A stretch of 64,000 bases of DNA from Cloeon dipterum (Eukaryota > Arthropoda > Insecta > Ephemeroptera > Baetidae). The notes beneath the pieces are model-generated. The model was not told the DNA's origin and ran no database searches. It was given only the letters and a program-made list of their open reading frames with translations. The stretch spans positions 26,092,501 to 26,156,500 of the forward strand of contig NC_088787.1 in the NCBI RefSeq assembly GCF_949628265.1, written 5' to 3'. The translations under genes and the position numbers were made by a program. Shown in pieces: positions 6,111 through 43,800 of this stretch (position 1 is its first letter; each line of letters opens with the position of its first letter).

Positions 6111-6130
6111 GAAAATAACGGCTTGAGAGA

Positions 6131-17411: not shown

Positions 17412-17443
17412 TTTACTTCAATCGTCATTTTATGTTATAAGAG

Positions 17444-17578: not shown

Positions 17579-17634
17579 GTAATAAAACACGTCCCAGCAG
17601 AACGCACAAAAATAATCTCACATCAAACCAAACC

Positions 17635-18856: not shown

Positions 18857-19082
18857 AGCTGTACTATATATATACTCTGGTCGCATTTCTACGGTTTCGG
18901 TAGCGGCCCATAGAATTTAATATACAAACACTGCAAGAGAATTGCTAAACTGTCATTGACTTTTTATGGATTTAAAGTTAAATATTTGTTCTGTTGGATT
19001 AATTGAATACAGTTGAAATAAAAGGGTTTTAAACGAGTGTGTCGTTAAACGTACCAAATCTGCTATAGATAGACCCGAGTTT

Positions 19083-19091
19083 GATAAGATA
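19083..19091 (+). promoter_or_regulatory. GATAAGATA motif upstream of pseudogene copy C
   Basis: The same 9-mer seen before genes B and G, 55 nt before the ATG of the dead copy. The motif was therefore part of the duplicated promoter unit. Confidence 0.45.
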
Positions 19092-19137
19092 AAAACGGAT
19101 CTCTTCGCGAACCCATTTTATTCATCGCAGTTGCAAG

Positions 19138-19767
19138 ATGCAAGACTTAGGTGATCTGAAATTGCGGCCCCTTTCGGCCGAGTTGCTTCAGCACGTAGTC
19201 GAACATTTGAACGAAGACCCAAAGAGTAGGGCAGCGGACGTGAAGGTCATCATAGGGACTTGTTGAAAAAGCAGAGGCATATCATTGGAGCCAGTTGATC
19301 GTTTCCTTCCTGAGAGGCTGTAAATTTAGTTTGGAGATGACCAAACAGAAAAACTTCATAATTCATAATATATATTTCACTGTTAAAAGTGCTGTTCCAG
19401 AATTTTTCATACACCGTGCGACCTGATAAAAAATAAAGGAATAAGAGCCGTCCTCGATTACAAGTAATTCATAAACCTTAAAACGAGACCCATTTAAAAA
19501 GAAAACTTAAAAAGCATTCCTTTTTGTCAATTAAGCTATTAAATTAATTTTCAAATTTTGTCTTTCCTATAAAATTTCAATTTATAAAAAATTGAAATTA
19601 TATCGTTTTAATTGATTCATAACATATGCTGTATATTAAAGATCATTTTTTGTTCCTCTACCCGAGATTGATGACTAGGATCGTAAAGTAATAGTTGTTT
19701 TTATGGCTGGATAGGAACGCATCTATTCGGCATTGAAGGCTCCTTCCGCTAATTAGAATTGGATTAG
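19138..19767 (+). pseudogene. CRAL-TRIO pseudogene, array copy C
   Basis: An ATG and about 40 codons match exon 1 of the array (DLGDLKLRPLSAELLQH...). A small insertion near codon 38 then shifts the frame and gives TGA at 19264-19266. A second indel follows near 19295, where the PSD-type codons before QLIVSF are lost. Homology continues out of frame to about 19425. Exons 2-5 are not recognisable. A remnant of the last exon (LFGIEGSFR, then TAA, then LELD, TAG) lies at about 19714-19767. The copy has therefore lost its core by deletion or decay and cannot make a CRAL-TRIO fold. The promoter-like GATA motif upstream is still intact. Confidence 0.88.
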
Positions 19768-20194
19768 ATGCTAGATTGTTTAAAAATATGTTTGAAACAG
19801 TCTTGCGCCATGGTGGTGGTACAAGTTATTGAATTTTCATAAAAATCTCATTTTTTTATTAAAGTGGAGATATAACTATTTCTTATACATGTGAATTGCG
19901 GTTGATGAATTTTAATATTCATTTTTATATATAGTTCCTCTTGTTTCTAAATAAACCATGCTGTGGAAAATCTAACATGAATAAAAAGGCACAATATTAT
20001 ATTACACCACTATCACTAATCCCGCCAAATTTCAACCGTGCTGCCATCTCTCTAAATTCAAAAAAGCGCAAATTATGGAAGGGCGGGTCTGAATTAGAAG
20101 TGCGCACCAGCAGAAAATAATACAGAAGAACTCCCTTTATAATACAATCGCTTTAAAAGGCCACCTCTCTCTCTGACGAATAATCAGCAGCACC

Positions 20195-21450
20195 ATGGTG
20201 GACGATGTGGGTAGCCTGAAAATCCGACCCCTTGCACCTGATCTGTTGCAGCACGCAATGCGAGAGCTGAATGAGGATCCGAAAAAACGTCCTGCCTACG
20301 TCAAAGATATTCGCGATTGGCTTAAAACGCAAGAGCATATCGTTGGAGTGCCGAGTGACCAGTTGATCGTCACGTTCCTTAGAGGGTGCAAATTCGACCT
20401 CGATAAAACGAAAGAAAAACTTGATACTTATTTCACAATAAAGACGTTGGTGCCAGAGTATTTTAAAAATCGTGATCTTACGAAAAATGAACAGCTACGG
20501 AAAATTTTGAACTTGCGGTAATACTATAATTTCGATTCAGACGAATCCCTTAATTGACTTTTGCTTTTATTAGCGCGTACATATCGGTCCCAGGAACAGA
20601 TGAGGAAGGACGCAAAATTTATATTATGGTAATGGGCCGAGACGAACCAGGGACAATCGATCCAGACGAAGCTGCTAAAGTTATAAAAATAATTTGCTTA
20701 AAAATTTTATTTTTAAAAAAATTCCGATTCTCTAGTTCAATTATATGGTTATGGACTATTTGCTTATGGAAGACGACGTTGCTGTAGTGATGGGAATTGT
20801 AAATTTGACAGACTTGTCTCCATTGACGTTACAACACGCGAAACAATTAATGCCCAGCATGATGAAGAAAACTACTGCTTGTTCAGAGGTTCTTCGTTTT
20901 TAATTTATTTATGGGCACAGTTTTTTCTAACAAAATTAAAAATTTTTATTAGGGAGGTTACCCTTTCCGTCCAAAAGTGGTGCATTTGCTTAATATGCCG
21001 AGTTTTGTTGACAAGATTCTTGAATGGATCGAAATGTTCAGGAAAGACAAAGATGACTTGAAGGTTTGGTGTATTACCTGGTTAAGGAAGCAAGTTCTTA
21101 ATTTTGATTCTTTTAGGTTTACTTGTATGGTAATGATTTAAGCGCCTTGTTAAGCCGCGTACCAAAGAAACTTGTACCCAATGAGTTTGGTGGTGAAGCT
21201 GGAACGCTGGATGAGCTAGGAAGTGAGTTAAATTGCTCCTATGTATATACAGTACTATCAGAATTTAAATAGCTAAATATTTAATATCTTGTTTTCAGAG
21301 GAATTCGCTGACAAAATTCTTGCATTTAACGACTGGTATGTGGCGGACGAAACGAACGGTGTTGATGAAAATAAAAGAGTTGGGAAATCTAAAACAAGAG
21401 AGGATCTATTAGGCATGAACAGTAACTTTCGTGAATTGGACTTTGATTGA
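20195..21450 (+). CDS. CRAL-TRIO lipid-transfer protein, array copy D (divergent)
   Basis: Exons 20195-20517, 20574-20679, 20736-20888, 20953-21063, 21117-21222 and 21299-21450 give 316 residues with conserved phases. The N-terminus (MVDDVGSLKIRPLAPDLLQ) is typical. Exon 4 is diverged: GGYPFRP is kept, but the following helix is acidic and unlike the other copies (FRKDKDDLK replaces FSKEKLNRR). Exon 6 has DETNGVDENKRVGKSK and ends in LGMNSNFRELDFD, changing the GSFRQL tail. The exon 2 donor (AAA|GTTATA) is weak but is the only one at the conserved place. No GATAAGATA motif was seen upstream. A TATAAT-like element lies near 20142. It appears to be an intact but fast-evolving copy. Confidence 0.9.
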
Positions 21451-21994
21451 TGTTTAATTGTAATAACAACCTAATTCTAACAATGAACTTGGGCAGTCGT
21501 GAAAATTATGTTTAATATTATTGTTTGAAAAATATAACACAAATAATCTGCCATTAAATTGCTAGACAAAAAGTAAATTTTAATTTATGATATGGTACAG
21601 AAAAAGCTGGAATAAATTGTAGTATTTGAGTGACAATTGTGACTTTAAATAAAAACATTAACATGATTGCTTCAAACGAAAGTATTGATGTTTTACTCGT
21701 ACCTTAATAAGATAAAAATCCCTCGAAAAATTAATTTTGATACCGTCACGTGGCCTGCGCGTGCTCTTCAAAACACTCGTACTCTGCACTATCAGAATTT
21801 AAACCACTTAATGTACAGTAAATTAATGACACCTGGATTACACCATATATACACCCAAGGATACGGAGGTAATATCTATGAAATAATCGATAAAAACTAC
21901 CTCTCCTTGTTGAGATAACCTTAAAAATGTTGCAAACTGCGATTACATCACCTCACATGTTCAGCTAACATTGTCAGTTGTTTGGACCAAGAAA

Positions 21995-24168
21995 ATGGAA
22001 GACGACGTGGGCACTTTGAAAATTCGGCCGCTCTCGCCCGAATTGCTGGAGCACGCGATCAAAAACTTGAATGAAGACCCAAAGAGACGGGAGGCAGATG
22101 TGAAAGCGATCAGGGAATGGTTTAAAAAGCAGACGCACATCATTGCTGACCCCAGCGACCAGTTGATTGTGTCCTTCCTCAGGGGCTGCAAGTTCAGCCT
22201 GGAAAAAACGAAGAAAAAATTAGACATGTACTACACCATTAGGTCGATGGCGCCAGAATTTTTCAAAAACCGAGATTTGAACAAAGACGCAAAGCTCAGA
22301 GAAGTCATCGAAAAAACGTAAATTGAAACAATTTTCTTAAAATATTTTGCCTAACTTTATAATTAAGTTAAATCTTTATGATACTCAGGCAATAATTAAA
22401 TAAGAAATTTTGAAAGTGCGAATCAATGAATGAGAAAAATTGTATCCAGTTTTGTGTTAATTGCGTGTAGATCTTAAATATTTTCAGCATATTGGTTTAA
22501 AAAAATGATCTAAGATTCTCACCTCTTCTTTTCGTTAATTTTTCATTCTTTAAAATAGCTGAAAATTAAGGACAGAATTTCATGCTTGTAAATTTTTGTA
22601 TTTGATTGCAGCGAGTATGGCTGCGTAAAAAGATTTATTTCGTCTCTCGTTCCTTTTTAAGTTCCTGCTTATTGTTAGAAGTGAGTGCAGTTATTACCAA
22701 CAATTACTCATTAATATCATAATTCTCTGTAGCTAATACGCTGTGTTGAATCGATATTTCGCAATATGAAAATAAAATCATTAGAATAGCTGTTTTATCA
22801 AAAACTATCTATTATTAAATTTGAATGAACCAATTAATTTATACAAAGAAAATATCATTTTTATAACCCTAAAAAAGATGACACTAAATAAAATGTATAA
22901 TAATTACTTATAAATAATTAATAATTAAAATTAATGTAAGCATACATATTAAATATTAGATTTAAATTAAACTTTACTTCAAATTAGCAAAGCAAATATT
23001 TTTGTTTATTTTGAAAATGATAAATATTTTAATTAAATTTTTCTGTAATCTTTGTTTTAAGTTACATGTTTCCGATCGGCTATGACTACGAGGGACGTAA
23101 AGTGTACATGATGGTAATCGGCAAGGATGACCCAGAAGGAAAATTTAAAATGGAAGACGTAATCAGGGTAAAAAAATAATATATAAAATTTGTGAAAGAT
23201 TTAGTAGAAAAATATTTTAATACGCTTTGGCATAATTAAAAACTTTCCTGTTTTGCTAAACTTTATTTTTATATTTGCTTCAATAATTAAACTTAATTTA
23301 ACACAAAATGCTGCCACATATACGCCTTGAAGAGGGAGGGATACTGTGCCGCTGAACAGTCATTCAGTCCGGTTGGCTTTTCACGATATGACGACAGTCA
23401 AATTAATGAAGCATATTTATTTTTCTTAATCTGATTCAATTACATCAAATATGCCATTTTATAATTATACTTGACTCTTTTTTAGGGAAACTTTGTTCTG
23501 GTTGACTACATGGTGTTGCACGACGATGAGTCCATTGTTAAAGGGAGCGTTCAAATAGGCGATTTAGCAATGATGAGAATGTCCTACGTCACTCAAATGA
23601 TGCCCAGCTTCATGAAAAAAATGAACGTTTGTTTCGAGGTAAGAAATTTTAATGAACAAAAAAGCTTTATTATAATAAATTTCATATTTCAGGAGGGATA
23701 TCCATTTCGACCACAAGCAATGCACATGATCAACATGCCCTCGTTCTTTGAAAAAGTGCTAAAATTTTTCCAGTCGTTCCAGAAGGAGAAAATGACTCGC
23801 AGAGTAATAAATTTATCCACATATTGAACTATAAGCACCAATTTTATTTATTTTGTGCAGCAAACAGTCTACGGTAGTGACTGGGAGAAAATGTATGAAA
23901 CAGTTCCTAAGAAAATAATGCCCAATGAGTATGGTGGCGAGGCAGGAACAATCGATAGCCTGAGCAGTGAGCCTAAAATAAACATTGAAATTAATTATGT
24001 GACAATATTTTTTTAGAGAAATTTGCAAAGGAACTGCTCGAGTTCAACGATTGGCTTATTGCTGATGAGAAAAATGGCGTGGACGAGAAAAAGAGGATCG
24101 GAAGAGCGAAAACCAAAGAAGATTTGTTCGGCATGGAAGGCTCGTTCCGCCAACTTGAATTTGATTGA
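21995..24168 (+). CDS. CRAL-TRIO lipid-transfer protein, array copy E
   Basis: Exons 21995-22317, 23062-23167, 23486-23638, 23693-23803, 23861-23966 and 24017-24168 give 316 residues. The first intron (744 nt) and second intron (318 nt) are much longer than in A, B, D and G. The N-terminus is MEDDVGTLKIRPLSPELL. The ligand-domain core carries EGYPFRPQAMHMINMPSF, and exon 6 encodes GVDEKKRIGRAK and FRQLEFD. It is nearly identical to copy F in exons 1 and 4-6, so the two are recent duplicates. The GATA-like motifs upstream (near 21707, 21888 and 21912) are not the perfect 9-mer. Confidence 0.92.
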
Positions 24169-25321
24169 GATCACAACGACATCTGATTTCAAGAGTTTTG
24201 GCTTTTATTTTTTAGTTCTATTCAAACGATTACAAACTCAATGCAGCGCAGAGTAGAGCCACCCCGTATTTTTTTATTCATTTGTTTTTAGCTGAAATAA
24301 TATGTAGTGGTTGCGGAGCCGATCTCCTACTCATTTTTCATTTTTGGCTCAATGTATATTGTTAGTATTTATTGATAAATTTTTATTAGGCGCCTGTTTG
24401 TTAGAAATTCGTAATGCAACAGTGAGAGAATTTTTATTTTAATCAGATTTCTCCGGACTTTCGACCAATTAGGTCGCAAATCGAAGAAGAAAAGTAAAGT
24501 CTATAAAAAAATAATAAAGGATATCAGTGGGTCCCCTATCTCACAATGAATAAACCGATCAAAAGAAAAGCATTATCTCAAAACTAAATCTTTTCATATT
24601 TTGCCTCCAGACACAATGATAATAGTTTAAGTTAAATATTGGCATTATAAGGGTAATGAGAGAAATCTGCAAAAATTTGCCAGAGGAATAGAAAGTAATT
24701 TGATTCTGGCAACAATAAATGATCGCAAAGAACTTTAAATCACAGGTTTCTAAAAAAAATTAACTGCACTTGCCGCAACAGTAGTGAGCACAAATCAAAA
24801 AGAAGGATAATTATTGACACAATTATTTATTTTACAATCAGCCTAATTAGAATAAACTATTGCAATTATTTTTTCTTGCTCGATTCTTGTTTCCAGTTGC
24901 ATAATTTTTAAATTGGTATAAATGGCTTGAGTTCATGAAAACTTTTAGATCTGACATTATCGCGCAGCGAATATACTTGCTGCATAAAAATGTTCATAAC
25001 CATCTCACCTCTAGAAATTTAATGCTTTATAAAATACATTTCATACATCATACGCCTTTTCCCAGTAACCTTCGACAAGAGTTGAATTTTTATTTTTTCA
25101 TCAACTTTTGAGCGATTTTTGCAACACTCTAAATTATGTTTCACTGTGAGAAGTTGCTGGGAAAAGGCGCTACCTATAATGTCACAATATTTTACGGGTA
25201 AACACGCCCAGCGAGTAGAGGCATTATCTGGGGAGAGCATCATCGATAAGATTAACCTCTCCTCGCTACGATATACCTGCTAAAACTCTACAATAACCAA
25301 CCTCAGTTGACCGGTTTCATA

Positions 25322-27132
25322 ATGGAAGACGACGTGGGCACTTTGAAAATTCGGCCGCTCTCGCCCGAATTGCTGGAGTACGCGATCAAAAAATTGAATG
25401 AAGATCCGAAGAGGCGTGAGGCGGACGTGAAGGCGATCAGAGAATGGCTTAAAAAGCAGACGCACATCATTGCTGACCCCAGCGACCAGTTGATTGTGTC
25501 CTTTCTCAGGGGCTGCAAGTGGAGCTTAGAAAAGACAAAGGTGAAGCTGGACATGTACTACACCATGAGGACAATGGCACCAGAGCTATTCAAGAATCGA
25601 GATTTGAACAAAGATGCAAAGCTCAGAGAGATCATTGACAACACGTAAATAATCAATCGATGCTATAAAATCAACACACCATACTTTTAATTACTTATTT
25701 TTTTTTAACTTTTAGCAAAATCTAAACGATAACGACAAAATTATATAAATAAGAAGTTAATTCAGTTATTTTCCAACGATTGCTTTTAGCAGTTGATATT
25801 ACCAGCCCGTCGACTCGCAATTTTTAAAAGGCATTCCTTTCAGTGTCAAAACAATGGGAGATATTTGAACATATCGTGGCTGCTGAAATATTTCGTACAA
25901 AATAAATTCATATCTCGACAATTTACAAAATAACCTTTAAATTAATAATATTTTAATTTTATTTAAAAAACACTATTTGTTTACAAATATTTCCGTGTTT
26001 CCATTTACCAGGCACGATGCTAAAAATTGAGAAGAACTGTAACAAATTGAGTTTAGTTTAAGACCTATTAATACAATATACACATAGCTATTTCTTCCCA
26101 ACTGGCTACGATTTTGAAGGACGTAAGGTCTACATGATGGTGATTGGCAAGGATGATCCAGAGGGAAAAATTAGAATGGAGGACGTGATCAGGGTAAGAA
26201 CATAGTATAGTAAGTTAATTTAAAAGTTAATAATTTCAAAATTAAATTATATCGTTTTGTTACAAACGCCCTCAAGAGCGAATGGAAATGTATCACATTT
26301 ACCAGCTAAATATTTTTAAAAACAAAAATCCAACAATTATTTGGGAAAATTGTTAATAAATGGTGGGAAAAGTAAGAACAACATGAAATTTGTGACAAGT
26401 TAACTTTTCCAATTTTGATAATAACGATAGTAACACTTTTTTATTCACTGCCCTATAGATGAACTTTGTAATGATGGATTACATGGTCATGCATGATGAT
26501 GAAACCATCGTCAAAGGTATCGTCCAAGTTGGGGATTTGGCAATGATGAAAATGGCATACGCCACCCAAATGATGCCAAGCTTCATGAAAAAAATAAACG
26601 TTTGTTTTGAGGTGAGACAGTGTGGAAATTGCGATCAAAATAATTAAAAATATAAATCAGGAAGGATATCCGTTTCGACCGCAAGCAATGCACATGATCA
26701 ACATGCCCTCGTTCTTCGAAAAAGTCATGAAGTTTTTCCAGTCGTTCCAGAAGGAGAAAATAACCCGCAGAGTAAAATAATATCGTTTCTATTTTTCAAA
26801 CAATAAATCCTTATTTTTTTGCAGCAAGCAATATACGGGAGCAATTGGGAGAAAATGTATGAAACAGTTCCTAAGAAAATATTGCCCAATGAGTATGGTG
26901 GCGAGGCAGGAACAATCGATAGCCTGAGCAGTGAGTCAAAAATAAACAATGAAATTATTTATGTGATAATCTTTTTTCAGAGAAATTCGCCAAGGAACTG
27001 CTCGAGTTCAACGATTGGCTTATTGCTGATGAGAAAAATGGTGTAGACGAGAAAAAGAGGATCGGAAGAGCGAAAACCAAAGAAGATTTATTCGGCATGG
27101 AAGGCTCGTTCCGCCAACTTGAATTTGATTGA
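25322..27132 (+). CDS. CRAL-TRIO lipid-transfer protein, array copy F
   Basis: Exons 25322-25644, 26088-26193, 26459-26611, 26661-26771, 26825-26930 and 26981-27132 give 316 residues. This is the sister of copy E. The N-terminal 18 residues match exactly, and exons 5 and 6 differ by only a few bases outside the start of exon 5. Differences gather in exon 3 and in residues such as GCKWSLEKTKVK, where E and most copies have GCKFSLE. Introns 1 (443 nt) and 2 (265 nt) are long, as in E, and do not obviously align with them. GATAAGATT lies 77 nt upstream of the start at 25245. The ATG chosen is the first in frame. Confidence 0.92.
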
Positions 27133-27313
27133 GATCATGACATCAAGTTTTCAGCTTTTGCTTACTGTTGTTATATAACAGATAAGAAATTAAATAAAAT
27201 ATTAAGAGAAACCAAAAGTTAATGTTTCGATTCATATTAACTAAATCTTTGCACACTCGGCCTGCAGTCAAAGAGTATAAGATAATAGTATCAGGTATAA
27301 ATCATTGCCATGA

Positions 27314-27322
27314 GATAAGATA
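27314..27322 (+). promoter_or_regulatory. GATAAGATA motif upstream of CRAL-TRIO gene G
   Basis: The same 9-mer as before B and C, 71 nt before the start codon. A further ATAAGATAA lies about 35 nt upstream of it. Confidence 0.45.
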
Positions 27323-27384
27323 ATCCGAGAAGTCTGCGGAAAAACGTCCAGCAGACGAAAAAGTAGAGTTATTCGGCAACTAAA

Positions 27385-28613
27385 ATGATTGCAGACGACG
27401 TTGGAAATTTGAAAATTCGGCCTTTGACGCCGGAGCTACTGGACCATGCGATGAGGAAGCTGAACGAGGACCCCAAGCGGAGGGAGGCTGACGTGCAGGC
27501 CATTAGGGACTGGCTGAAGAAGCAGGCGCACATAGTTGGGCAGCCGGATGACCAGATGATCATCACTTTTCTCAGGGGATGCAAGTTCAGTCTTGAGAGG
27601 ACCAAGGAGAAGCTGGACATGTACTACACAATCAAGACGATGGTGCCCGAATTGTTCAAAAATCGCAACCTCAAAAATAATGAGGTGCTTCAGGAAATCC
27701 TCAAGCTTGGGTAAAATTTTCAATAAAATTAGATTATTTTTTTTAATTTTGCTCTTTTTATAAAAGATTTTTCTTCCCGGTGGGGGAAGATGACGAAGGT
27801 CGCAAAGTTTATGTGATGGTAGGCGGCAAAGACGAACCAGGAAAATACAAGGTGGAAGACGTAATGAAGGTATCATTTCTCTCTGTTCTATCATAAACTA
27901 TACATTTTATCTTTAAAAGGTAAATTTTATGATGATGGACCATATCATGATGCACGACGATGCATCAGTCATCAAAGGAACGGTGAATGTGATGGACATG
28001 GCTCAAATGAAGATGGCACATGCTACTCAGATGATGCCGAGCTTCATTAAAAAAATCACAGTTTGCTCAGAGGTGTGCGACCTCCATGAATTTATTCACT
28101 AACCCTTAACCCTAAACTTATTCCTCTAGGAAGGATATCCGTTCAGACCTCAAGGAATGAATTTCATCAATATGGCTTCATTCTTGAACACAATTTTCAA
28201 ATTGTTCCAGTCTTTCAGCAAAGAGAAAATAAACCGACGGGTAATAAAGTGATTTTATTCATAATGCATTTTGCAATCTTTTTATGTACAGACGTTTGTG
28301 CACGGCAAAGATTTGGAATCACTGTACAAAAAAGTGCCGAGAAAATCATTGCCAAAGGAGTACGGTGGAGACGCTGGCTCAGTGGACGATCTCGCAAGTA
28401 AGGAAAATTAGCGTTAGGGCTCTTCATTTTTTAATGTTAACCTTCAATTTCAAATTTCTAGAGGATTTTATTGACAAAATACTCGCTTTTAATGACTGGT
28501 TTGTGGCCGACGAAAAGAACGGTGTGGATGAGAAGAAGCGCACTGGAAAATCGAAAACCCAGCAGGATTTGTTTGGCATGGAGGGCTCATTCAGGCAACT
28601 CAATTTGGACTAG
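27385..28613 (+). CDS. CRAL-TRIO lipid-transfer protein, array copy G
   Basis: Exons 27385-27710, 27767-27869, 27920-28072, 28130-28240, 28292-28397 and 28462-28613 give 316 residues, with all introns 47-64 nt. The start is MIADDVGNLKIRPLTPELL. Exon 2 (FFFPVGEDDEGRKVYVMVGG) and exon 4 (EGYPFRPQGMNFINMASF) fit the core of the family. Exon 6 reads GVDEKKRTGKSKTQQD and FRQLNLD. Exon 1 is GC-richer than in its neighbours. An AATAAA near 28668 follows the stop. Compact introns and exons of standard length make this the cleanest example of the array plan. Confidence 0.92.
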
Positions 28614-28679
28614 CAAGCAACCGATGTTGTGGCTTACAATGTGAAAACTAAAATCTTGAGCTTGAGGAAAATAAATTTT

Positions 28680-30029
28680 ATTTGAATTCAGATTCACTAA
28701 TATTTATAATCAAAGCTCGCCTTAGAACACACAGGAAGCTGTGCCGCTGTGCACACACTTGACGCAGGTAGCATAACCATACAGGGGCTTCCCAGTTTAA
28801 AAATCTATATGAGACTAATATAAATTACGAAATTTGGCTTGAAAACATTTCTATTGCATAGCACACATTTTTATTCTGGACATTGATGAAGCTAAAAACC
28901 AATTAATTAGCCACGCAATTTACTTCCATATCAATGAAAAGGTAGATCATACTTGAATTTTTTTTAATAAAATGAAAAGAGCATCACACTCTGAGCTATT
29001 TTATTATTAACCTTAATTAAGTTGACAGTTTGTAAACATGGCAAAGAGGAAAAATATTCACCTCTTGATATTCATGACCAGTAAAAGTACTATATTGATT
29101 CCATCCCTAAGCGTTTTTTTTAATTTTTTCCTCTGTACACATGTATGTAATTAATTTCTTAAACTCAGTAAACTGTTGCGCTTTTACATGCTATCAGAGT
29201 GTGAATTAAGGCAACATACGCGAATTTATCAATCAGAGGTCACAATATAAACAGGAACAAAGGCAAATATCAACAATTAACCAGCATTCCATTCTACTTG
29301 TGCGGGAATAAGCCAGAAGGTCACGTGCGAAAAGGCCAACATGTGTGCTTCGAGTCCCATCTCACTTGTTAGCTATGGGGGAAGCCGGAAAACTGTTTCC
29401 GACAGACAACCATTGAAGAATTAATATATAACGTCGCGTGAGCGCTAATAACATTTTTCATAACATGAATTTCTAATCGAGATGCACACCAACGGACTAA
29501 ATGGTATGGACAGATGCTAAAGATTGAGCGCAACAAGGAGGCTTCACTTGGTAACAATCGTTTCATTTTGCGTCGAAATAACTTTCAATTAACTATGAGT
29601 CCGCGCGTGGCTTGTTTCTATGTATTCACCGTTGCAAAAAGCAGATTGTATGGGAGAGGGAGCTAGAACAATAATGTATGCGACTGAAGCCCAGTGAAGG
29701 GAATCACGCCATTCATATATGTCATTCTGCAAATCTTTCAGGTGACCTCCAAAACTATTAGCGTTTTTGCTGACGCGCAGGAGGTGCCATGAATATTCTT
29801 AAAACTGACTAAAAGATTTCCCCCAAAATTATCACTTCATGTGATTAAAAAATCTTGATTTTATATTTCTTATTGCACGTGTTTCTTGATTTAATATATT
29901 TTTGGAAGCACAGTAATTGGCACTTAGTGATAGATCCAGCGACGTTGAATTTAGCTTCGATGATTGCGGTCTGGCAGATAAGGAGATAACAAAAATCATT
30001 GGCTGTACAGAGTGCAAGTTCTGTTAAGA
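28680..30029. other. Intergenic gap inside the CRAL-TRIO array
   Basis: About 1.35 kb separates copies G and H, the longest gap in the array. It is AT-rich. No coding exon, degenerate CRAL-TRIO copy or repeat was recognised. GATAAGGAGATAA at 29977-29989 probably belongs to the promoter of H. Confidence 0.5.
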
Positions 30030-30036
30030 TTATATA
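30030..30036 (+). promoter_or_regulatory. TATA box candidate of CRAL-TRIO gene H
   Basis: TTATATAAG lies about 60 nt before the H start codon and about 40 nt after a double GATA motif (29977-29989). The spacing would leave a leader of about 30 nt. Confidence 0.45.
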
Positions 30037-30092
30037 AGCCAAAGTCAATATGCGACAGCTATCGAATAAAACGAAAAAGAGAGTCGGCTAGC

Positions 30093-31447
30093 ATGGCAAG
30101 CCAAGTTCAATGTCGCGAGTTGAGCCCGAAACTTCTGGAAATAGCGAAAAAAGAGCTCAATGAAGACCCAAAGCGGAGAGCCACAGATGTGCAAGCCATC
30201 AGGGACTGGCTCAAGAAGCAGCCGCACATTATTGCAAAGCCGGATGACCTGACCATCCTCACCTTCCTCAGAGGGTGCAAATTCAGTCTGGAGAGGACCA
30301 AGGAGAAGCTGGACATGTACTACACCATGCGAACAATCGTGCCGGAATTCTTCGCATCGCGTAGCGTGAAGGAAGGGGCCTTGCGCGAAATACTGTTGAA
30401 CGGGTAAATTTTAAATTTAGTGATAAGTACAAATAAAAATTACTATCATTATTCAGAGCATATCTTCCTTTGCCTATACCAGACGAAAACGGATGCAGAA
30501 TACTCCTGTCACGACCAGCGCTGGTGAACGTGGAAAAATACTCAATGGAGCTATTTTTTAAAGTAAATAATATTCCAACAAAACCAATCGTGATATTTAC
30601 AAACAACAATCAGGTTGTGTTCCTGGCCATGGACTACTTGATTAGAGAGGACGATCAGATGGTGGTGTGCGGAGTTTCTGCCATAATAGATCTTGAAAAC
30701 GTCACCCTTCCACATGGGTTGCAAATGACTCCGGCCTTAATCAAGAAGGTCATGACTTGCTCGCAGGTAAAATTCCAACACCGAGATCATCCAGGTATTA
30801 CGGCTTTTTACAGGAAGGTTTTCCGCTGCGTGAAAAGGGAGTCAATTTTCTGCATACACCGCCTATGTTTGAAACGATTTTCAATTTCTTCAAAAGTTTC
30901 AGCAAAGAAAAACTGAAGAAAAGGGTATTTCTACAATGCGATCATATTTTTATGAAAAACAATAACAATCTTAAAATAGCTTCATGTGCATGGGGATGAT
31001 GTGGAGTCGCTGCATAAAATCATACCACAGAAGTTGTTACCAGCCGAGTATGGAGGAACGGCCGGAACTATTGACGAAATCAAAAGTAAATATATTTTCA
31101 TGCGTTATAATATGCTATCATTAGTATCTCAGTCAGGGGCATTATTGGGTTTTTTGGTCGAAAAATAGTCAATGCTTCAGTTCATCTCCCAAATTCCAAT
31201 GTTTTTTTACCCTCATCGTTAGTTAAATTAATAAAGAGGAAAAATTATCGCATTTGTTATTTGTTTCAAGGCTAATATTATTAAATCTGAATTTTCAGAT
31301 GATTTTATAAAACGTTTAGAAGAACGTGAAGCGTGGTTTTTGGAGGAAACTGGAGGAGTTGACGAGAAAAAGAGACCAGGAAAGCCAAAAACGCATCAGG
31401 AGCTGTTTGGCTTGGAGGGTTCCTTCAGGCAGCTTAGCGTGGACTGA
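30093..31447 (+). CDS. CRAL-TRIO lipid-transfer protein, array copy H (most divergent)
   Basis: Exons 30093-30403, 30457-30562, 30614-30766, 30814-30924, 30980-31085 and 31299-31447 give 311 residues. The N-terminus is different and shorter (MASQVQCRELSPKLLEIAKK); from NEDPKRRATDVQAIRDWLKK on it rejoins the family. Exon 2 lacks the usual GRKVYMM strand and GG(K)DDP loop and reads NGCRILLSRPALVNVEKYSM. Exon 6 has EEREAWFLEETGGVDEKKR and then the normal KPK linker and GSFRQLSVD tail. This suggests the oldest branch, or one with a different ligand. Frame and splice sites are intact, so it looks functional. AATAAA at 31474-31479 ends the transcript, convergent with the TTC28-like gene. Confidence 0.9.
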
Positions 31448-31819: not shown

Positions 31820-34800
31820 TTAAACCATGTCTCCTGATGAGTGGAAAACTGTAGAGAAAATAAATCATATTAGCACTCGACAGAAAAGCTAATGAAAATT
31901 CGTCACCTTTACTCTGCAACAGCAAATTCCTAGAGTTTAGCAGGAGTTTGCTGCTGGTGCCACTGGTACTGGAGGAGTCTGTATTTTCAGCGGCAAGTTC
32001 CTCGAGTAAGGAACACAGGCCACCATCACCCTGGTCCCGACCTGACGCAGAGCTCGAGCTCTCGACAACGGAAGGTGTCTGCTGTTCGGCTGCTTGCTCC
32101 ATCAGGAGGGAACTCAGGGTCGGCGCCAAACCTAGACCGAGTCTTCTCTCGTGGTAGACATCTGAAATAGGCGCCAGTTGGTGTTGGAGCCGTCTCAACT
32201 GCGTGGCAATTATGTGATCCTGAAAGAAAATATTATATTTAATAAATTAAAACATCAGTCGATATTAAAAAATTAAAATTTATAATTCACACAGCAAAGG
32301 GGACAGAGGGAATGGTAAAATATTTTTTTAAAATTATATTTTAAAGCACCTTGACAATTACTTCCAATATTTGAAATTTATGCAGTATGCTACCTGAATG
32401 CAGTGTGTCTCCGGGGCAACGGAGAGCCTTGAAGACCTCTGGGGAGGGGTGGCAATGTCTGAGGAGTCGGAGCTGTGTGAGCTGTGCCTTGGTGGAGGCA
32501 TAGTTGGAAGGTTGGCTGGCGGCAGCGGTGGCGCCGATGCTGTCGGCAGGGGTGCGTGGCGCCGCACCATAGTCAGCGTGGCGGCGCCCTCCCAGTCGGT
32601 TGTGGTTGCGGTCGAACTGCTCGCGCTACTTGACGAGTCAGGACGCCTTCGACCTGTATGATAATTAAGTTATTTTCAATGTTTCAATTGAAATTTATTT
32701 TAAAAAGTTTCTTGGGCCTATTTTGGACACGTAAAAATGGAATACAATATTATATATTTCAACAAAATGCATTTCACCTGTGGTCATAGTGCTTGAGGTT
32801 GGCGTGTAGAGATTTTTGATTTTGGTCTGGTGCAGGAGCGAGAGGGCCAAAGCTGGCGGCTCCACAGGACTAGGGGTGAAGGCGGCGTCACTCTCTCGAC
32901 CGCCGCTGGCCCTTGAGTGCGTCACACCAGGCTCCACGGCAGTCCTAAGAAAATGAGATTTTTTTACAAGATTAAAACAATGAGTTGGTAATTTAAAAAA
33001 GCCCTTTTGTAAATTTTGCTACAAGTAAAATAAAAAATGTGGCTGAGAGTTTACCTTCCATCTGGCTCTCCGCGCCTCCTGACGTAACTGGTGAAGGCAC
33101 CCCTACGGCCTAGCATGAGTGGAGGGTTGAGAGGCGTGGAGTTTTGCGGCACTAGGGGTCCAGGAGTCGGCACCAACGTGTGGTTTAAGTCCATGGTGTC
33201 CGACTCTTCGACTTCGCCCTCTTCGTCGCTCAACGATGACCAGTCTGGACTTGCGCTTCGAGGTGATTCATCTGATTCTATGAAAGTGGATTGAGTTTTG
33301 TAAAAAAATGTATGATTGGACATGAAATTCCAGAAGGAAAAAATATTCTTAATTTTTGCTACTTACCAAACAAAGTGGTGACAGCGGTCAAAGCAAACTG
33401 GATGTTCCTTCGTGAGGCTTGCTTGCCGGTTCGGAGGGTCACTTCATTCTGGCCTACTTCCATCAAATCAAGACCTTAAATAAAAAATACAGTCACACCA
33501 AATAAACTCAATGGTTTAGAATCTGAAGTACCAAGGGAAGCCAGCAATTCGTGGACACCAGGTTCTCTCCACAGCTTAACAGTTAGCGCTGCTTCAACGG
33601 TGCTTGAAGCGGACGTCGAAAAATTGCTGACTGAGCCAGTTTGCGAGGCTGAGGAACTTGATGAAGATCCTTCCAACTCGGATGCTGGGTTGGAAGTGGT
33701 TTGGATTCGACGTAGCACTGTGCTCAGCTCGCGAGCAGCTTCAGTATTATTCAATAGTCGTGACAGGGCGTGCAAGCTGGTTGCAGACAGTCCTAAAATA
33801 AAGATTAAATATTTATCAATTCATCATAGGCTACATATATAGCTGAAAAAAACTTGCTTAAATGAAACTCTAATGAATAACCAAAAAAAATAAGTAAAAA
33901 ATGCTCTCGTCATTTGCTGATTATTTACTATTAATAATTTATGTCAAATTAATGAGTTATATAAGAGTATGCGTGTACATATTATTCGACTGCCTATCTT
34001 AATGGTTCAATTTGTTAACATAGTTTTAAGAAAAACTCACCAAGCAGCGCCTGAAGCGAAGAGCTGACCTTGGACAGTCGCTCTCCTGTGTCGTTTTGTG
34101 GGAAAAACACGGAGGCGGGAATGCCATGTGCCGCCGGCTCGAACCTGAAGCCCACGGCCATCAGGAGCTCTCTCCAGCCAGGCACCTCACCGACTTTGTT
34201 CTCAATCGACTTTTGCGTAGTGTACATGGCGTTCTTCTGGCCTCTCTGGATTCGTTGCAAAGACTTCTCGATCAGGTGGAGCGACACCCTGAGGGCGTCA
34301 CGACACTCGCTGGGCCGGCCTAGCAGCTGGCCCAAGGCCTGGCCCACGAGGGCCCCCTTGCAGCAGATGCGGACGTCAGCGCCTACCAGCACGAAGCCGG
34401 CCCAGTTGGCGGGATGGGCAAAATGCTTGGTGTGCTGCACAGTGGTCATCGCTTCGGCCAGGGCTCGACTCACCCTTGCACCCTTAGAAAATTAAATTAA
34501 TTATTTGAGTTTTGGCGAGTATAATGCCCACTGAAAAATTCTGATCGTTTTCTAATAAACTCTCAATATTTTATATTTAGAATGTTTAAATATGTCTTAA
34601 ATTTAGGCACCATCTACAATCCAAAAACTTATGAAAATTAACATGTAATAAAAATGAAATATATTGATTTTAATTTTTCTAAAGGAATATTGTTTTGTCT
34701 TTTTATTTTAATTCATTTACCTGGAAGAGTGCAGAGTAGAATGCCCTGAGCAGGATTTTGGCAGCTGTGTCAGGTACGGGCCAAAGTGCCAATAGGACAC

Positions 34801-37800
34801 ATTGGACTCCGGAGGCCAACAGGGCTCTGGTGAGGCCGACCACCCCATCAGCGGAAGCCCAAGTCTGCTGCTCTCTCGTGTGGCAAGAACTCAAGACAAC
34901 CAATCTGGCTCTAAGGCGTAGGGACACGAGGTCTGCGGCGGTTAACAGAAACTCAGACAAGGATGCTGGCTCAGAGCTTGGCTGAAATAAAGAAATAAAG
35001 TTGTTGACAATTTTTACGAGGGATGTTTTATTAATACAAATAAGGAATTCCTTTTCAAAACGAATCCATGGTAAAAAGGAGCCTGAAATTTACTGTTGTT
35101 AAATCGGTTAATATAATAATGATATTTTTAAAATATCTCTAGAATATTTATAAATTTTCTAACCGTTTGGAATAATTTTTAAATTTTATATTGATTACTT
35201 TTGAAATTTTAGTGCATGTGCGGCGTTCATCGAACCGACAGAGAGATCCTAATTAAAAAAAAAATAAAAACTCACTTCAGAACTCTCTTCCTCCGGGTCC
35301 ATTTCCTCAGGAGACGCAATTCTTTTCTGCAGCGTTGACGGCATCTCGACCGTCGTAGGAGAAGGCGGTGCCAGTACGATGGCGGACAGCTGCCAGGATA
35401 CGTGCGTCGAGAAGTGGATGCAGTCAGCGGAGGTCAGTCTGGTGAGCACCGCCTGCTTGGACGCGTTTTTCCCGACGAGCAGAGTGGGCCCTGAGGGCGC
35501 AAGGGCGGGGGCCGACGAGGTTTGCAGCAGCTCCCCGACCATGATGGCCTCTTGCTCGGCAAGCGGCAGGTTGTTCCAGCCCCACTGCTCTGTGATGCTG
35601 GGCGGAAGTTTAGGGTTGCCCACCACCAGGGCACTCAGTTCGGTCAAAGTCTTGTTGGTGCGACGCTGTAGACGCGCCTGCTGCTGCGCTGCGGCGCCCA
35701 TGCTCGACAGCGAGCTCAGCGACGGCACCACCAGAAGGCTGAATCGCTCGCACAGGTAGTCTGCTGTGCCCGCTGACCGCAGCACAGGGAACGGCACCAG
35801 GATCAGGTCACCGTCGAGCACTAAGAGCAGCTCACGGCTTCCATCTGAAGAAACAAATTAAATTTAGAGTTATTTTTGGGCAACGTGTGGGCATATTTAG
35901 TTACTTTGAGTAAGTACTTCATCAAAGGGAGCGATGAGAAGGTGATAGAGGGCGGAAATACAGGCAGGACCCTGCCAGGGTGCCCTCCGTGATCTTTGGG
36001 AACCTGCTCGGCTTGGGGTGGACGTTGACGGACCGCTTGCCACACTAAACAATTAATTTTTACATTTAAAATTTAGATCTAAATTCACTTAAATAAATCC
36101 CACCTGAATAAACTGCTTAAACTGTAGTTGGAGCAGTTGAACGCATGGTTCCTATTGACCATTCGGAGGAAACCGGTTCTGTCCCCATCGTGGTTGAGTC
36201 TCTCGCCAAGCTGCTCCAGATGCTGACTCCAGAGCTCAGTCATTTCCGGCTCAGAACTGCCAGCCTGCGAGCCGGCGTCGTTGAGGGATAACGCCATCAT
36301 ACTCTTGTGCAAGTTCTTTGACGAGCCGGTGGCGATTTCAACGCCCAGAGTCTCTCGGACCGCTTGGATGTAGTTCTCCAGGATGGAACCTTCGTCATCC
36401 TTGTCCAAATTCTGCTCACTGAAACGCACGACTCCTTTTCCAGGAACAAGACACCAGCTTAGGAGACAGCCGGCAGAAATGCTGAAGTACAGGACTGCTG
36501 CTTTTTGGTGGTCCACAATGGACAGGAGTGAGTGAAGAGAAGCTGGATTTGCCTCTGGTAAAACTGAACTTCTTTGGCTGCAATACACAATTTAAGAATT
36601 GAAAATTTTATATTGGTTGAAGTTCCAAACCAAGAAAAACCAATAATTAGAAATGACAAAAGTGTTCAGTTAAAAAGTGACATATCGCATATTGGTCTAC
36701 TAAAAATTGTTTTTGAAATTAATATATTATAAATATTCACCCTGGATTGATTCCTCTCCTTTGCTCGATTAGGTCATTGTGAGCTCTGGAACGAGCCCTT
36801 TCTGAAGCCAGCAGCGCTTCAGACGTGCGGCCTAGAGACACCAGGACCTTAACCAGAGCTTGATAGCACGCAGTCTGTAGATCAAAAAGCGCCAGCCTTC
36901 CATCAGGGTCCTTGGTCTCCTTGCGCAGGGTCTCCAGCATTGTGGCTGACCGCTCCAGTTGAGATGCAGCGGCCGAAATGTCTCCCTGAGCCCACAGAGC
37001 CAGGCCCAATCGATGGCGGGCCTTGGCCTCCTCCTCCCTTCGACCCAGGAGCTGCGCTAAGGAAAGAGCCCTCGCCAGGTTGTTAGCAGCGGCGCCCGAA
37101 TCACCAAGGGCGTGTTGAACACGGCCTGAATAAGATAATTAGAGCAAGAATAATTGGGTTGAAATTTCCACCATACCAAGTGAGCTGTAGGCGAATATCT
37201 GCTGGATTTGGTCGTTCGTGTGGATGGATAGTTCCAGTTGCTTTTCGTAACATTGCTGGGCCTCCATCATATTTCCCAGGGCCTCGTGAGTGACGCCCAG
37301 GTTACCGTGGGCTTTGGCTTGGGCTGAGCTCATCTCGAGTTCTTCCGCGAGTGCCAGGTGCAGTGTGTGGTGTCGAAGAGCGCCTTCTAGGTCGCCAGTC
37401 TTTTGCAAAACACTGCCCAGACCACTGGCAGCCTCACCCTCTGCGGCCTTGTCACAAAGATCTCTGTTAACAAAAATTTAAAAAATTGTTAATAAATATT
37501 CATTTTTGTGCAAAACCTTATATTTTTAAGCTCAGCTAGCTGTTAATATTTTCTGAGACAGTAAAATGCAATAGTACCTTGCGATGGAGAGTTGATGCTG
37601 GAGACAACTGACAGCTGGTTCAAACTGCCCGAGGGCGGCATGCACCTGTCCCAGGTCCCCGTAACCGTCCATTTTGGCGTCAGGATTGCCCAGCTCGTGG
37701 GCCACCACAAGTCTTTTTTCGAAGCAGACTAGCGACTGCTGAAGGTGGCCCAAGCTTTGGTGCGCGTTTCCTAGGCCGCGAAAGGCGCGTTCTTGGTCGC

Positions 37801-40800
37801 GTGGACTGTGCAGCTGATTGGCCAGGTTGAGGTGCTGCTCGTGGCACCGGATTGCTTCTTCCCAGTCTCCAAGAGCCTCGTAACAATCGCCAAGATTGCC
37901 TAAAGCTCGGCCCTTAAATCATGAAATAGAAACTTAATTATGTTCTACCAAGCACTTTTCAATAACTCAGCTTATTTCAACCTGTAAATCAAGTTTTTTT
38001 CTGCCGATAAAAGAAAATATATCTCTAATGAAAATTAATTTAATATTCAATTGAGGAATTTTTCGTGAGAAGTTTTGAATGAGATATATAATCCGTTTTG
38101 ATTTCTACTAAAAATGTATAGTTGAGAGGATAATAATTAAAATAATAAATACCTTATCAAGCAATGAAGTTGGTGTGCAAAGAGGCTCTAAAGTAGCCAA
38201 CTGCTGCTCTAGGTAGCCAATAGCATCCTCGTAGTGGCCCATATTCAGTCTGGCGATTCCGAGATTGCCGTAGGCTTGAGCTTCCAGGGCTGCTTCTCCA
38301 ACCTCCCTTGCTCTTTCCAGCTGCTCTGAGTAACACTTTGTTGCGTGTGTGTAGTTGCCCAGGGACATGTGCACAGCGCCTAGCTGACCATGCGCCCTGC
38401 ACTCGCCCCGGACGTCGCTCATTTCCTGCCTCAGGGTTAACTCCTATAATGCGAAATGGTGAGATTTTGTTCCCTGAGCCGAGAAAGGTTTCAAAATACC
38501 TGAGTGTGGAATCCCAGCGCCTTGTCGAAAAATCCGAGCGTCCTGTTGGCCCTCCCGAGGGCACCGTAAGCAGCCGCCTCGAGAGACCGGTCGCCGATGT
38601 TCCTGGCGAGGGCCAACTGCCTGGCATACATCTTCACAGCCTCCTCCATATTACCCGACCTGCCGAGGACATCACCCATGTTGCCGAGAGCGCGGAATTT
38701 GCCAGCGGCGTTTTTGGTCATGTGGGAAATGGCAAGAAAGTACTTTTGGCACTCTAGTGCAGTCGCGTGCGCTCCCAGGGCCAGGTGAGCCAGACCCAGG
38801 TTGCAGTACGCCCTTGCCATTGAGTTTCGGTCCTGCAGGTCTTTTGCTAACGCCAAATCCTGGTTGATTTAAAAAAAATCAATCATTTTATTCAGTTTAA
38901 ATAAGAGATTTGAATTTGATATTTTACCTGATCATAATAGCGAACAGCCTCTTTGTAGTTCCCAAGGCAATAATGCGCGTATCCGAGCAGGTGGCATGCT
39001 TTGCCCTCTCCTTCGACGTCATGCATTTCCTGGCTGAGCATCAGGTAGTTCTCGTAGAAAGGCACGGCTAGGTTGAACTCCGCTCGCGAGCTGTGGCAGT
39101 TCCCCAAGTTCAGAAGGGCGCACGCCTCACCCGCCGCGTCTTTCAGCTCGCGCGCGATGTTTAGGTGCGCTCTGTAGTGCATCAGCGCCTTCTCGTGCAT
39201 CCCCAGCGCCTGGTAGGCGACTGCCAGGTTGCCGTGGGTCGACGCCTCGGACGACCTGTCGTTCACTTCTTTGCTGATGGTCAGCTCTTGTTTGTGCAAT
39301 TTTATGGCCTGTTCGTAGTAGCCCATGGCGCTATGCGCGTTTCCCATGTTCCCGTAGGCGCGTCCCATGCCTGCCCTGTCCCCGAGTGCTCTGGCGATTG
39401 CCAGGTGAGCCTGGAAAATAAATATTTTATCAATCAAAGCATTCGGTAGACAAATTAATTGTATGCTATTTTAAATCTGAATTTAGTGAATCGAAACGAA
39501 TTTAATGATCCCAATTGAATTCTACTGTTCATGATATATTAATCGAGATTCTGACCTGGTGCAATTTGAGGGCGGCGTCGTGGTCGCCGAGCAGCTGGTA
39601 GACGATTCCTAGGTTGGAGCAGGCCCTGCCCTCGGCGACCCTGTCCCTGGTGGCGAGCGCCGAGTCGAGCTGCCGTTCGTGCCACTTTCTAGCCTGCGTG
39701 TAGTCGCCCATGCACCTGGCAGCGTGGCCCAGCCCAGCGTAGGCCCTCGCCTCCACCGACCGGTCCTTGAGCTTCAGGGCGATGCGCAGCACGTGCTCGT
39801 GAAAGGCGAGCGCCTTTTCAAAATTGCGCCGGAAGTGGTGGCTCGAGCCGAGGTTGCTGTAGGCCCGCGCCTCCTCTACCTTGTTGCCCAGTTGCTTCGC
39901 TAACCTCAGGTGTTGTGTATGGCAGTCAACCTGAAAACCGAGTGGTTCATGTTATAATCGGTAAGTTTCAAGCAGCACTATTAAGAAAAAATAACTCCTT
40001 GCTTAAATAAAATAATTTCTTTTTCTCTTATTAATCAAAAGCAATTTTCAATTTCTTTTAACAAAAGTCTATACTTCAAATTATTGTCTGCTTGAAAGAG
40101 TAGCATGAATTAACAACTTTTAATCTGAATATTTTAAAATTAAATTACTAGAAAGCAAGAGAAAAATAAATATCACTCACGGCACTGTCAAAGTCGCCCA
40201 TAGCGAGGTAGACGGCGCCGACATTTCCGATCTCCCTGGCCTCCTGCAGGGTGTCACCCATCTGCTTGACCAGCTGGACGCACTGCTTGTGAGATGCCAG
40301 CGCGTTGGGGTAGTCCCCGATGGCCGTGTACACGTGGCCCAGACTAGTGAGGGCGGCCGCGGCCGCCTGCGTGTCCCTGCACTTCATGGCGAGCACGAGC
40401 TGGTAACGGTGCGAGGTAAGCGCCTCTTTGAAGCTGCCCTTGCTGAAGTATGCAGAGCCGAGGTTTCCGTGCGCCCTGCACTCGCCAGCGATGTCGCCGA
40501 GGCTCTTCGCCACCGCTAGGTCTTGCTGCATGTAGCTGATTGCCTGTGGGATTGCAGACATGAGAAAATATTTCAGAAATGAGCTCAAGATGAGAGCGAA
40601 ATGGGGAACAGGAAATTAAAACATTTTGGAAATGGAGCATTTTTCACCAATTAAATTCTTGGCTCCTGAAAAGCTTTACTTTAACAAGGCAATTCAGTAA
40701 TTTTTCAAACACTGCAATGCGTATTGAGTTAAAATTTTTACTACAAACAACGAAGAAAACTTATTCAACGTAATAATTAAAATGTACTTCAATAAAAACT

Positions 40801-43800
40801 GTCATTTTAATTTAAACCATGAATTATCAAAACATCTCTTAATCTGAGATTTTCAAGTTATGATTCCAAAATTTACCTTGTCCAGCGAGTTCAAAGCCCA
40901 GTAGGCCGATGACAGAGCTGAGAAGACTGAACCACGAAGTTTGAGACTGCATGTGCCGATTCTGAGAGCAGCCTCCAACACCACGACCGCCGGAGCGTAC
41001 AGGCCAGCGGCCAACAGCTCTTGACCCACGACCGAAATGATGACAAATGGTGAAGAATCTAACTTCATCGCCTTCAGCTGTCGGAACGTGGGGTCAAGTG
41101 TTGCTGCAAAATTTAATTGTAGAAAAAAAAATTAGGAGATTATTGCAGCATACATCTCAAAGGTGACTTCATGGCGGCCTCGATCAGCGCATTTAGCAGC
41201 TGCGTGGACTTTGGGTCCTGCCCCAGGCCGGAACTGAAGGCGGCCAGTGCGTCCCCATGGCGGCCGAGGCATTGCAGGGCCACCCCTTGACGGAAGTAGG
41301 CTTTTGGCCATCGCGGCTCGGCTTCCCTCGCGGCCAAAGCGTCTTGCAATGCTGACTGAAATTTCCAAAAATTTGTTAAATAATTTTCAGAAAAATTTAT
41401 CCTTCGCAAATTAAAAAAACACGGCACAATTTGAATATTTCATTGGGTGGTTTAGTTTTTATGCTATGAATTTTTCTTATAGAAGTGACAAAATACTGAA
41501 TAATAATTGATAAATAATTTTCAAAGATCCTATCATAACAAACCTTTTTATAGAATGTTATGTTGCATGTCTACTGTTGATTAAGGTTCTCTTAAAAAAA
41601 TAATCAATTATGGTTTCAAGGGCTGAATAAAAATACCTGGAAATCGCCGAGTTTGATCCTGGCCGCGGATCGGTTGGAGAGGAGAACCGGGTGTCCTGGT
41701 GAGATGAGGAGAGCCTCGGTGTAGAGGGCGATGGCGTTGGCGAAGTCGCCGCTCTGGCAAGCCGCGTTTGACTGGCGCACCTTCTCGAGGAAGAGAAGCC
41801 TGTTGGCCGCCGGCAGCTCTGACGGCGCCTCCAACTCATTCTGCGACACACAACCACCGCATTCCATCAGCGAATTATCAACAACATTGTTATGCATCAG
41901 CACACACATCCGTCAAAGCGTAAACACAACATAACTGAGCGTGTTCAGAGATTCGGAGGCGTGAAGGAATAATAATATTTTGAAACACGTGTTGACGATG
42001 GGGAAGAAGTGATATCTAAATCCATGAGCAGTCGAGCTCAAGAAAGTTATTTTCAAGAAACATTTTTTGCTTAGCTTAATTTTAATTTGTTCATTATCTA
42101 GTTGTAAAATCTAACGAGGTGAATCAATTTTTTTTAATTTGGTCCCAACCACGTGAGAAATAGTCCATCCAACGACTTAAATTAACAAAACTCGTATAAT
42201 ATACTAATCAAACTCGAATTCGGACCGCAACCGTCATGAAATTGTGGTCTGACCGACAGAAATAATTATGTGGTCACTTCCTCTCTTTTTATAGAGGAGA
42301 ATTTTAAAAAATATCGTCCTACTCGGCCGGATGGGCATTGACTCTGCGATATAATCGCGCAGAAAAGAAGCCGTTGGTGCTCTCTAGAGGGCCGGCACGC
42401 AAAATAATAACACACAATAATAATGGGGACCAGTGTCTCCCGGCCTTGTGTTTATGTGAAAAAGAAAATAATGCAATAATAAAGATGACTGCGCGTCACT
42501 GACGGAGCGAGCAAAAATGCTCTGGTGCGCTCATTGTTTTTCGCTCAGTGCTCTCTACAACCACTGCGTGGGAAAAACTGAGCAGTATTCATTTAGGTTT
42601 GAGAAAGAAGAGAAGAAATTCCAACTTGAAATACGAAAAAAAATATCTTACTCAAGCGCTGGAAAAGTTCAAAGGTTCGATTTGAAACATCACGCTCCCC
42701 TTCCAGTTGATTGGCAATTAATCATTTTCAAAGCTAAATTCTGAAGTTGCAAATAATAAACAAAGGATTGGCGAATTCTGATCTTGCTGAAGATCAGACG
42801 ATGCCCAAAATGAATAGATCGAGACAATGGCAAATTTAAACTTACAATAAGTATTGAATCGCATTGTGAACAATGCGATGTATAGAACTGCGCGCACACC
42901 CTCTGCTTTTATGCGTCATTGTTTTTATTATTCATTCGCATTCCGTCTGTTCGAACCGCATTATCTTGAAAGAACGGCTCCCTTTATGACGAATGGGCGA
43001 TATATATACATTCGCAATAACTAGCTTCAGCGCACAACACATTCAAATGTACAACGTTGAATTTTCCGGTCTGCAGCACACCGGTTCACATACTGTCTGG
43101 CATTAAATGGTCCTTAATTAAAAAGCAGTCTTAATGGTGTAGACATGTCTTGAATTGCCAAGCACCCAGATAAATTTGAATTTTATGCTGACCTGCATTT
43201 TTATTTAAATAATGCGCTAATTTTTGCATAAGCAACCAAAGCGTTTAAAGCCATGTACTGCGTAAAGAAAATGTTTAATGCTGCGATTTTTACCATGCAA
43301 ATTCGGATTGCCAAAAAATGAGCTTAAAATTGTTGAAATTTTTCAATTTAAAACTAGTTCCCTGCATTAAATCAGCGTCAACGTGACTCGCTATCTTGTC
43401 ACACTTTTCCCGCTGACGAAACTGTCACGATCGAGCTGCAATTTCACTTTCAAAACCAGTCCATCGGTCTGCATAGGCGCAGACGAGTTGCAGCGAATGC
43501 CAGTCGCGTTTTCATGCAAAATAATCAACCGATTTTCTACTGGAAATCATAGTTTGAAGAGTTTTTCCTTTCCCACGGCATCGTCTGACCCTTCGGAAAG
43601 CAACAAACAATATCCTGCTCTCCTTGTTACGGGCATAGCATACGGAGAACATAAAAGAGAGCAGTAATTATTGGCCGAGAGCACGCTGCGGTGCAAATTC
43701 GCATCGTGGGTCAGCCGGCCCAAATGGATTTTCGCCGCGTTTATGGCCGAATCGTGCACAAAGCCAAACATGATAATTAACTGCGCCGAGCACACCACAT

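Follow-up and report, generated by a model that had tools for sequence, protein, structure and literature searches.

Proteins in which tetratricopeptide repeats (TPRs) precede a caspase-like CHAT domain have been described in bacteria and in eukaryotes. In Csx29, the TPR-CHAT protein of type III-E CRISPR (Craspase), mutation of the pair H615/C658 (H615A/C658A) abolishes cleavage of Csx30, and E617 (H+2), E659 (C+1), and D661 (C+3) position the dyad (PMC10028731). H585 and C627 have been named as the TPR-CHAT catalytic dyad, whose distance shrinks from about 7 Å to about 3 Å on activation (PMC9729208). The order of TPRs followed by CHAT is also that of animal TTC28 (PMC9145168, PMC12314368). 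The majority of metazoans outside the anthozoans possess one or two TPR-CHAT genes, and large expansions of these proteins are in print for corals (PMC12314368, PMC9145168). The precise functions of the TPR and CHAT domains of TTC28 are described as not well understood (PMC12314368). Here, we analyze a TTC28-like gene in a 64,000-nucleotide stretch of the genome of the insect Cloeon dipterum (NC_088787.1, positions 26,092,501 to 26,156,500), referred to as the window. Its CHAT domain retains both a histidine and a cysteine at the catalytic positions; judged from sequence, protease activity of this domain is undecided and somewhat disfavoured.

A TTC28-like protein with a His-Cys dyad

The modelled protein consists of a long TPR array followed by a single CHAT domain, as expected of TTC28. 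Pfam TPR_12 covers residues 1-1194 in 13 stretches with an expectation value (E) of 1.5e-113, while the spliced CHAT domain (PF12770) matches profile positions 3-289 of 289 with E 5.2e-62 and 210.3 bits against a cut-off of 24. This assignment is far beyond chance, and exon pieces of the domain scored singly by Pfam still reach 2.7e-23 and 5.8e-5. Only CHAT and a sub-threshold PUB were matched in this region; the separase family C50 gave no Pfam match at E 0.1 or better, and an NCBIfam scan of the protein returned nothing at E 0.1. When the entire genome (G000; 190 Mb, 10 contigs) was searched with the CHAT profile, exon-wise and with the best candidates scored, it yielded these exons only and no second CHAT locus, in keeping with the one or two TPR-CHAT genes of other metazoans (PMC12314368). 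Judged by its domain architecture, the gene is most likely this animal's single-copy orthologue of TTC28 (TPRBK). It represents a further instance of a known protein rather than a new kind of system.

Animal relatives were sought in a viral contig collection with the protein, the alignment A1, and a DNA pattern for the NAMYT motif, and none was found. One contig matching the NAMYT pattern (L095) was rejected, being without similarity to TTC28 outside the motif. The genome-contig collection scanned for relatives contains prokaryotes only.

The motifs CIHFSTHVSW, LVVLSSCHT, GVVGLTRALLASGVQ, and LWPVPD are all encoded on the minus strand, in exons 35844-35276 and 34981-34721 (window coordinates, as throughout). 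The dyad histidine H1546 has the codon CAC at 35404-35402 in exon 14 (E14), and the dyad cysteine C1621, 75 residues further on, has the codon TGC at 34885-34883 in E15. Residues are numbered from the first methionine of the open frame. The first-pass annotation, which counted from Met15, had reported the same two residues as H1531 and C1606, and the pair is indeed present. The interval that it assigned to the dyad region, 34721..35844, does encode both motifs; it also holds a 294-base intron.

That annotation had moreover placed the two residues where bacterial CHAT proteases have their catalytic pair, in the ATH and LSAC motifs, and here MAFFT, hmmalign, and a profile alignment to the PDB agree with it. 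In a MAFFT alignment with 10 plasmid-borne bacterial CHAT domains from 9 loci, the C1621 column is invariant and the H1546 column nearly so, the lone exception being a threonine in a Tolypothrix paralogue. Used as a profile, this alignment matches eight different sequences in the PDB, including Csx29/TPR-CHAT, and the dyad columns fall on H585 and C627 of 7x8a (counted by hand along the printed alignment). Since both the bacterial alignment and the 7x8a columns coincide with catalytic residues, the placement is right, and H1546 and C1621 occupy the catalytic positions of the CHAT/clan CD family. Searched with only the animal sequence, the PDB gave nothing at E 1, and the dyad-bearing part on its own gave one weak match, 8rot, at E 0.35.

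Dyad neighbourhood and the question of activity

Two bacterial sets served for comparison. The first comprises 110 CHAT frames from fetched loci (80 chosen by pattern, 16 neighbours of these detected by profile alone, and 14 from plasmid loci), 104 of them with intact dyads. This set is biased, as one of the two search patterns demands A[TA]HG; both H and C are present in 80/80 pattern-chosen frames versus 11/16 profile-only neighbours. Because of this bias, four whole genomes were sampled as a second set, in which 58 matches were listed and 48 loci examined (10 partial or weak matches were left out). A profile match was obtained for 36 of the 48 loci, giving 41 frames, 35 of which have both dyad columns aligned. 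The two sets may overlap, since the genomes G002, G003, G006, and G007 also hold the loci L016, L027, L059, and L067. Six of the 110 frames in the first set are broken, with H or C replaced, and come from cyanobacterial loci (L010, frame from 93; L029; L069; L075; L076; L092). Among the 16 profile-only neighbours, 5 are broken, and pseudo-CHATs therefore seem frequent in these cyanobacterial families.

The residues that directly flank the dyad set the animal protein apart. Across all clan CD families, a glycine adjoining the catalytic histidine is described as structurally conserved (PMC4357240), but this position is taken by valine (V1547) here. In the first set it is G in 101, S in 1, R in 1, and A in 1 of the 104 intact dyads, and in the four-genome set G in 27, A in 7, and C in 1 of 35. 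This range of G, A, S, R, and C means that CHAT domains, too, lack a universal glycine, yet valine occurs in 0 of the 139 intact dyads of the two possibly overlapping sets. The residue before the cysteine is serine (S1620), itself a small residue, yet alanine stands there in 103/104 and 35/35, that is, in 138 of the 139. The tetrad LSSC does occur in 2 of the 110 bacterial frames, both of which lack the histidine. Further, the positions that correspond by offset to the dyad-positioning E617, E659, and D661 of Csx29 are S1548, H1622, and R1624, none of them acidic. The changes from HG to HV and from AC to SC would lower, without excluding, activity.

Retention of the dyad was set against conservation of the whole domain, measured by column in the 110 bacterial frames at thresholds of 95% and 90% identity. 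The animal protein keeps 45 of the 58 columns at the higher and 59 of the 89 at the lower threshold, which corresponds to a chance of 0.60 and 0.44, respectively, that two given columns both stay. Close to the dyad (within 4 residues of the histidine or 5 of the cysteine), 8/11 columns are kept versus 37/47 elsewhere at the 95% level, and 9/14 versus 50/75 at the 90% level. As far as these columns indicate, the dyad region is without extra protection over the rest of the CHAT domain. With a retention probability of 0.44-0.60, the pair thus points to a well-conserved domain and not by itself to selected catalysis. The first-pass annotation had taken the dyad as that expected of an active protease; given this expected retention and the HV and SC states absent from all 139 bacterial dyads, that step finds no support as far as these comparisons reach.

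We favour, at about even probability, a TTC28 scaffold whose CHAT domain is catalytically weak or inactive. In such a protein, the long TPR superhelix would be the working part and would bind partners as a scaffold, while CHAT would serve mainly as a fixed folded module for interaction or regulation, its peptidase activity weak or absent, and the dyad cysteine would be an ancestral residue still present in this lineage. The low activity is suggested by the residues around the dyad; the scaffold function, presumably in cytoskeletal and division control, is transferred from work in zebrafish and human. Zebrafish Ttc28 binds the tail of Dachsous1b (Dchs1b) and limits microtubule dynamics; the tail is thought to draw Ttc28 off the microtubule-organising centre, and dchs1b defects are partly suppressed when ttc28 is lost (PMC12132318, preprint). 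In vertebrates, Ttc28 acts in the control of cell division and of microtubules and has a link to Aurora B. A paper from 2012, listed among the references of the same preprint (PMC12132318), describes human TPRBK in its title as essential for mitosis and cytokinesis.

Several observations weigh against this scaffold reading. In the four-genome set, H and C are present in each of the 35 frames that have both columns aligned. Since broken CHATs exist, loss of the pair was open to a domain free of constraint, and the animal domain kept both residues. H1542, T1545, and S1619 are kept along with them, as is T1623, the threonine two after the cysteine. Alanine after the histidine in 7/35 implies that a dyad can be kept without glycine there. 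The loss of the glycines at C+3 and C+5, considered as a decisive objection to activity, was dropped, as Csx29 is without them too in the printed alignment. Moreover, a fungal TPR-CHAT protein activates a gasdermin, which shows that activity is possible in eukaryotes (PMC12881547).

A rival reading is an active, regulated cysteine protease, which we regard as possible but doubtful. Its TPR superhelix would sense a binding partner such as a cadherin tail or a mitotic kinase complex, and a Csx29-like shift of the H and C loops from the inactive to the active distance would lead to cutting of a specific substrate, with vertebrates losing the cysteine later. The alignment of H1546 and C1621 with bacterial TPR-CHAT catalytic residues, the loss of Csx30 cleavage in the Csx29 double mutant, the closing of the TPR-CHAT dyad on activation, and the gasdermin-activating fungal protein agree with such a mechanism, whereas the HV and SC states and the missing acidic residues speak against it. 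Further, scanning the animal's own genome exon-wise in six frames, an approach that divergent or finely split genes can escape, revealed no gasdermin (PF04598); the substrate known from fungi (PMC12881547) is therefore unlikely here. A bolder form of the proposal, which we consider rather unlikely, holds that invertebrate TTC28 is an active separase-like protease with a non-canonical HV/SC site, switched on by TPR-bound partners (cadherin tail or mitotic kinase) and directed at a cytoskeletal or cell-cycle substrate, and that it became a pseudoprotease scaffold in vertebrates.

That the dyad persists through shared ancestry and general domain conservation, and carries no functional information, would agree with the 0.60 and 0.44 expected for any two columns. 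This is a null and not a function, and a single sequence cannot separate it from weak constraint; as a full account we hold it to be quite improbable. An artefact through contamination, a pseudogene, or mis-splicing is hardly credible. The gene is known from a single assembly with no transcript seen, and the closest matches obtained, at about 28-36% identity, are bacterial, but its 17 exons have consensus borders and matching phase, are open throughout, and lie at about 26.1 Mb of a contig.

Vertebrate TTC28, including the human protein, probably carries LGSS with serine in place of the dyad cysteine, as the first-pass annotation also proposed, and in human TTC28 the histidine would be followed by a branched residue and then Ser-Trp, resembling V-S-W here. 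If these residues are right, the glycine was lost before the arthropod-vertebrate split and the cysteine later, in vertebrates, an order that would fit a domain already weak as an enzyme; we take this as a lead, not as a test.

The system had been called little explored, which is fair for the enzymatic question: among the papers listed in literature searches on TTC28 and CHAT proteases, none was seen to test TTC28 for protease activity. It does not extend to the proteins as such, since animal TPR-CHAT proteins are in print (PMC12314368, PMC9145168). An animal TTC28 that keeps the cysteine offers a natural test of whether CHAT had an enzymatic function in early animals. An active protein would be a second TPR-linked caspase-fold protease in animal cell division, beside separase; an inactive one would be a pseudoprotease scaffold still holding its nucleophile, an ordinary outcome.

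Gene model and other features of the window

The gene lies on the minus strand, at about 26.1 Mb of its contig, and was modelled by joining exons with AG/GT borders, matching phase, and an open frame. The 17 exons run from 41909 to 33532 and encode 1,909 stop-free residues. E1-E11 (36741..41909) form the TPR scaffold, residues 1-1193, supported by borders, phase, and Pfam TPR_12. E1 opens at an ATG and spans 41909-41637, followed by E2 (41355-41154), E3 (41103-40877), E4 (40543-40181), E5 (39930-39556), E6 (39410-38928), E7 (38859-38500), E8 (38443-38153), E9 (37912-37578), E10 (37463-37177), and E11 (37125-36741). E12 (36104..36577), joined by a phase-consistent splice, links the TPRs to the CHAT core with residues 1194-1351; a Pfam scan of its open segment, 36085-36591, gave no family above cut-off.

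The CHAT domain, about residues 1376-1725, starts in E13 (35905..36044; ALYHLLIAPF...), where the spliced match begins at residue 186 of the 629-residue query. Its first half is encoded by E14 (35276..35844; Pfam CHAT 2.7e-23) with H1542, the dyad H1546, and V1547. The 294-base intron between the dyad exons (34982..35275) has GT..AG borders and the same frame on both sides and contains in-frame stops. E15 (34721..34981) encodes the second half with the dyad C1621, DGVVGLTRALLASGVQ, and LWPVPD, and matches profile positions 172-251 with 3.9e-20. E16 (34041..34482) completes the domain with HPANWAGFVLVG (positions 251-289, 5.8e-5), and E17 (33532..33792), reached by a phase-consistent splice, encodes the C-terminal region. 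The frame is still open at 33532 and further open segments lie below 33.5 kb; the gene probably extends into additional 3' exons beyond E17.

Right after CHAT, a PUB-like segment (PF09409) is found at 34482-34041 on the minus strand, about residues 1760-1810, with E 0.0036-0.026, below the Pfam cut-off. PUB domains bind the tails of p97/VCP, and the segment would accordingly suggest a further binding module.

Elsewhere in the window, a tandem array of CRAL-TRIO exons, which we take to be alpha-tocopherol-transfer-like, occupies 16549-30916 on the plus strand; its exon 30437-30916 matches six other places, at 16549, 18175, 20742, 23492, 26465, and 27968 at 33-44% identity. A C2H2 zinc-finger exon lies at 6127-6894 (plus), a possible additional one, read by eye, at 8702-9340 (plus), and a HIRA/TUP1-like exon at 1874-2362 (minus). 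Sixfold TTAGG or TCAGG repeats were not found in the assembly (190 Mb, 10 contigs); either the chromosome ends are absent from it or the lineage has another telomere repeat.

Comparison with known systems

With separase (clan CD, C50), the protein shares the caspase-like fold class and a link to cell division (PMC9729208), but Pfam assigns CHAT to it and no C50. The fungal gasdermin-activating protease is likewise a eukaryotic TPR-CHAT protein (PMC12881547); in fungi its gene clusters with a gasdermin gene, whereas the exon-wise search found none here. In some animals, TTC28-like TPRs are reported to be fused to TRADD-N domains among conflict and cell-death proteins (PMC8195603), a hint that immunity has elsewhere drawn on scaffolds of the TTC28 type.

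The best matches in the prokaryote searches that were run are cyanobacterial CHAT-domain tetratricopeptide repeat proteins, at 28-36% identity over about 330 residues; the second prokaryote search used an alignment rich in cyanobacteria. These genes are bacterial and reach up to 106 matches in one genome, in contrast to the one locus found in the animal, and the spacing from H to C is 42-54 in at least 96 of the 110 bacterial frames versus 75 here. As the first-pass annotation had pointed out, TPR plus CHAT is also the architecture of Csx29, in which the caspase-like CHAT has H585/C627 of 7x8a in the dyad columns. Csx29 differs in having HG, AC, acidic residues, and a CRISPR partner, whereas the animal protein shows HV and SC and is free of acidic residues at the corresponding offsets. 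A partnership with Cas7-11/CRISPR is implausible because the animal gene contains introns. Human TTC28 probably differs in having the serine of LGSS where this protein has its dyad cysteine. In overall build, the protein resembles TTC28/TPRBK: both combine a long N-terminal TPR array with one C-terminal CHAT domain.

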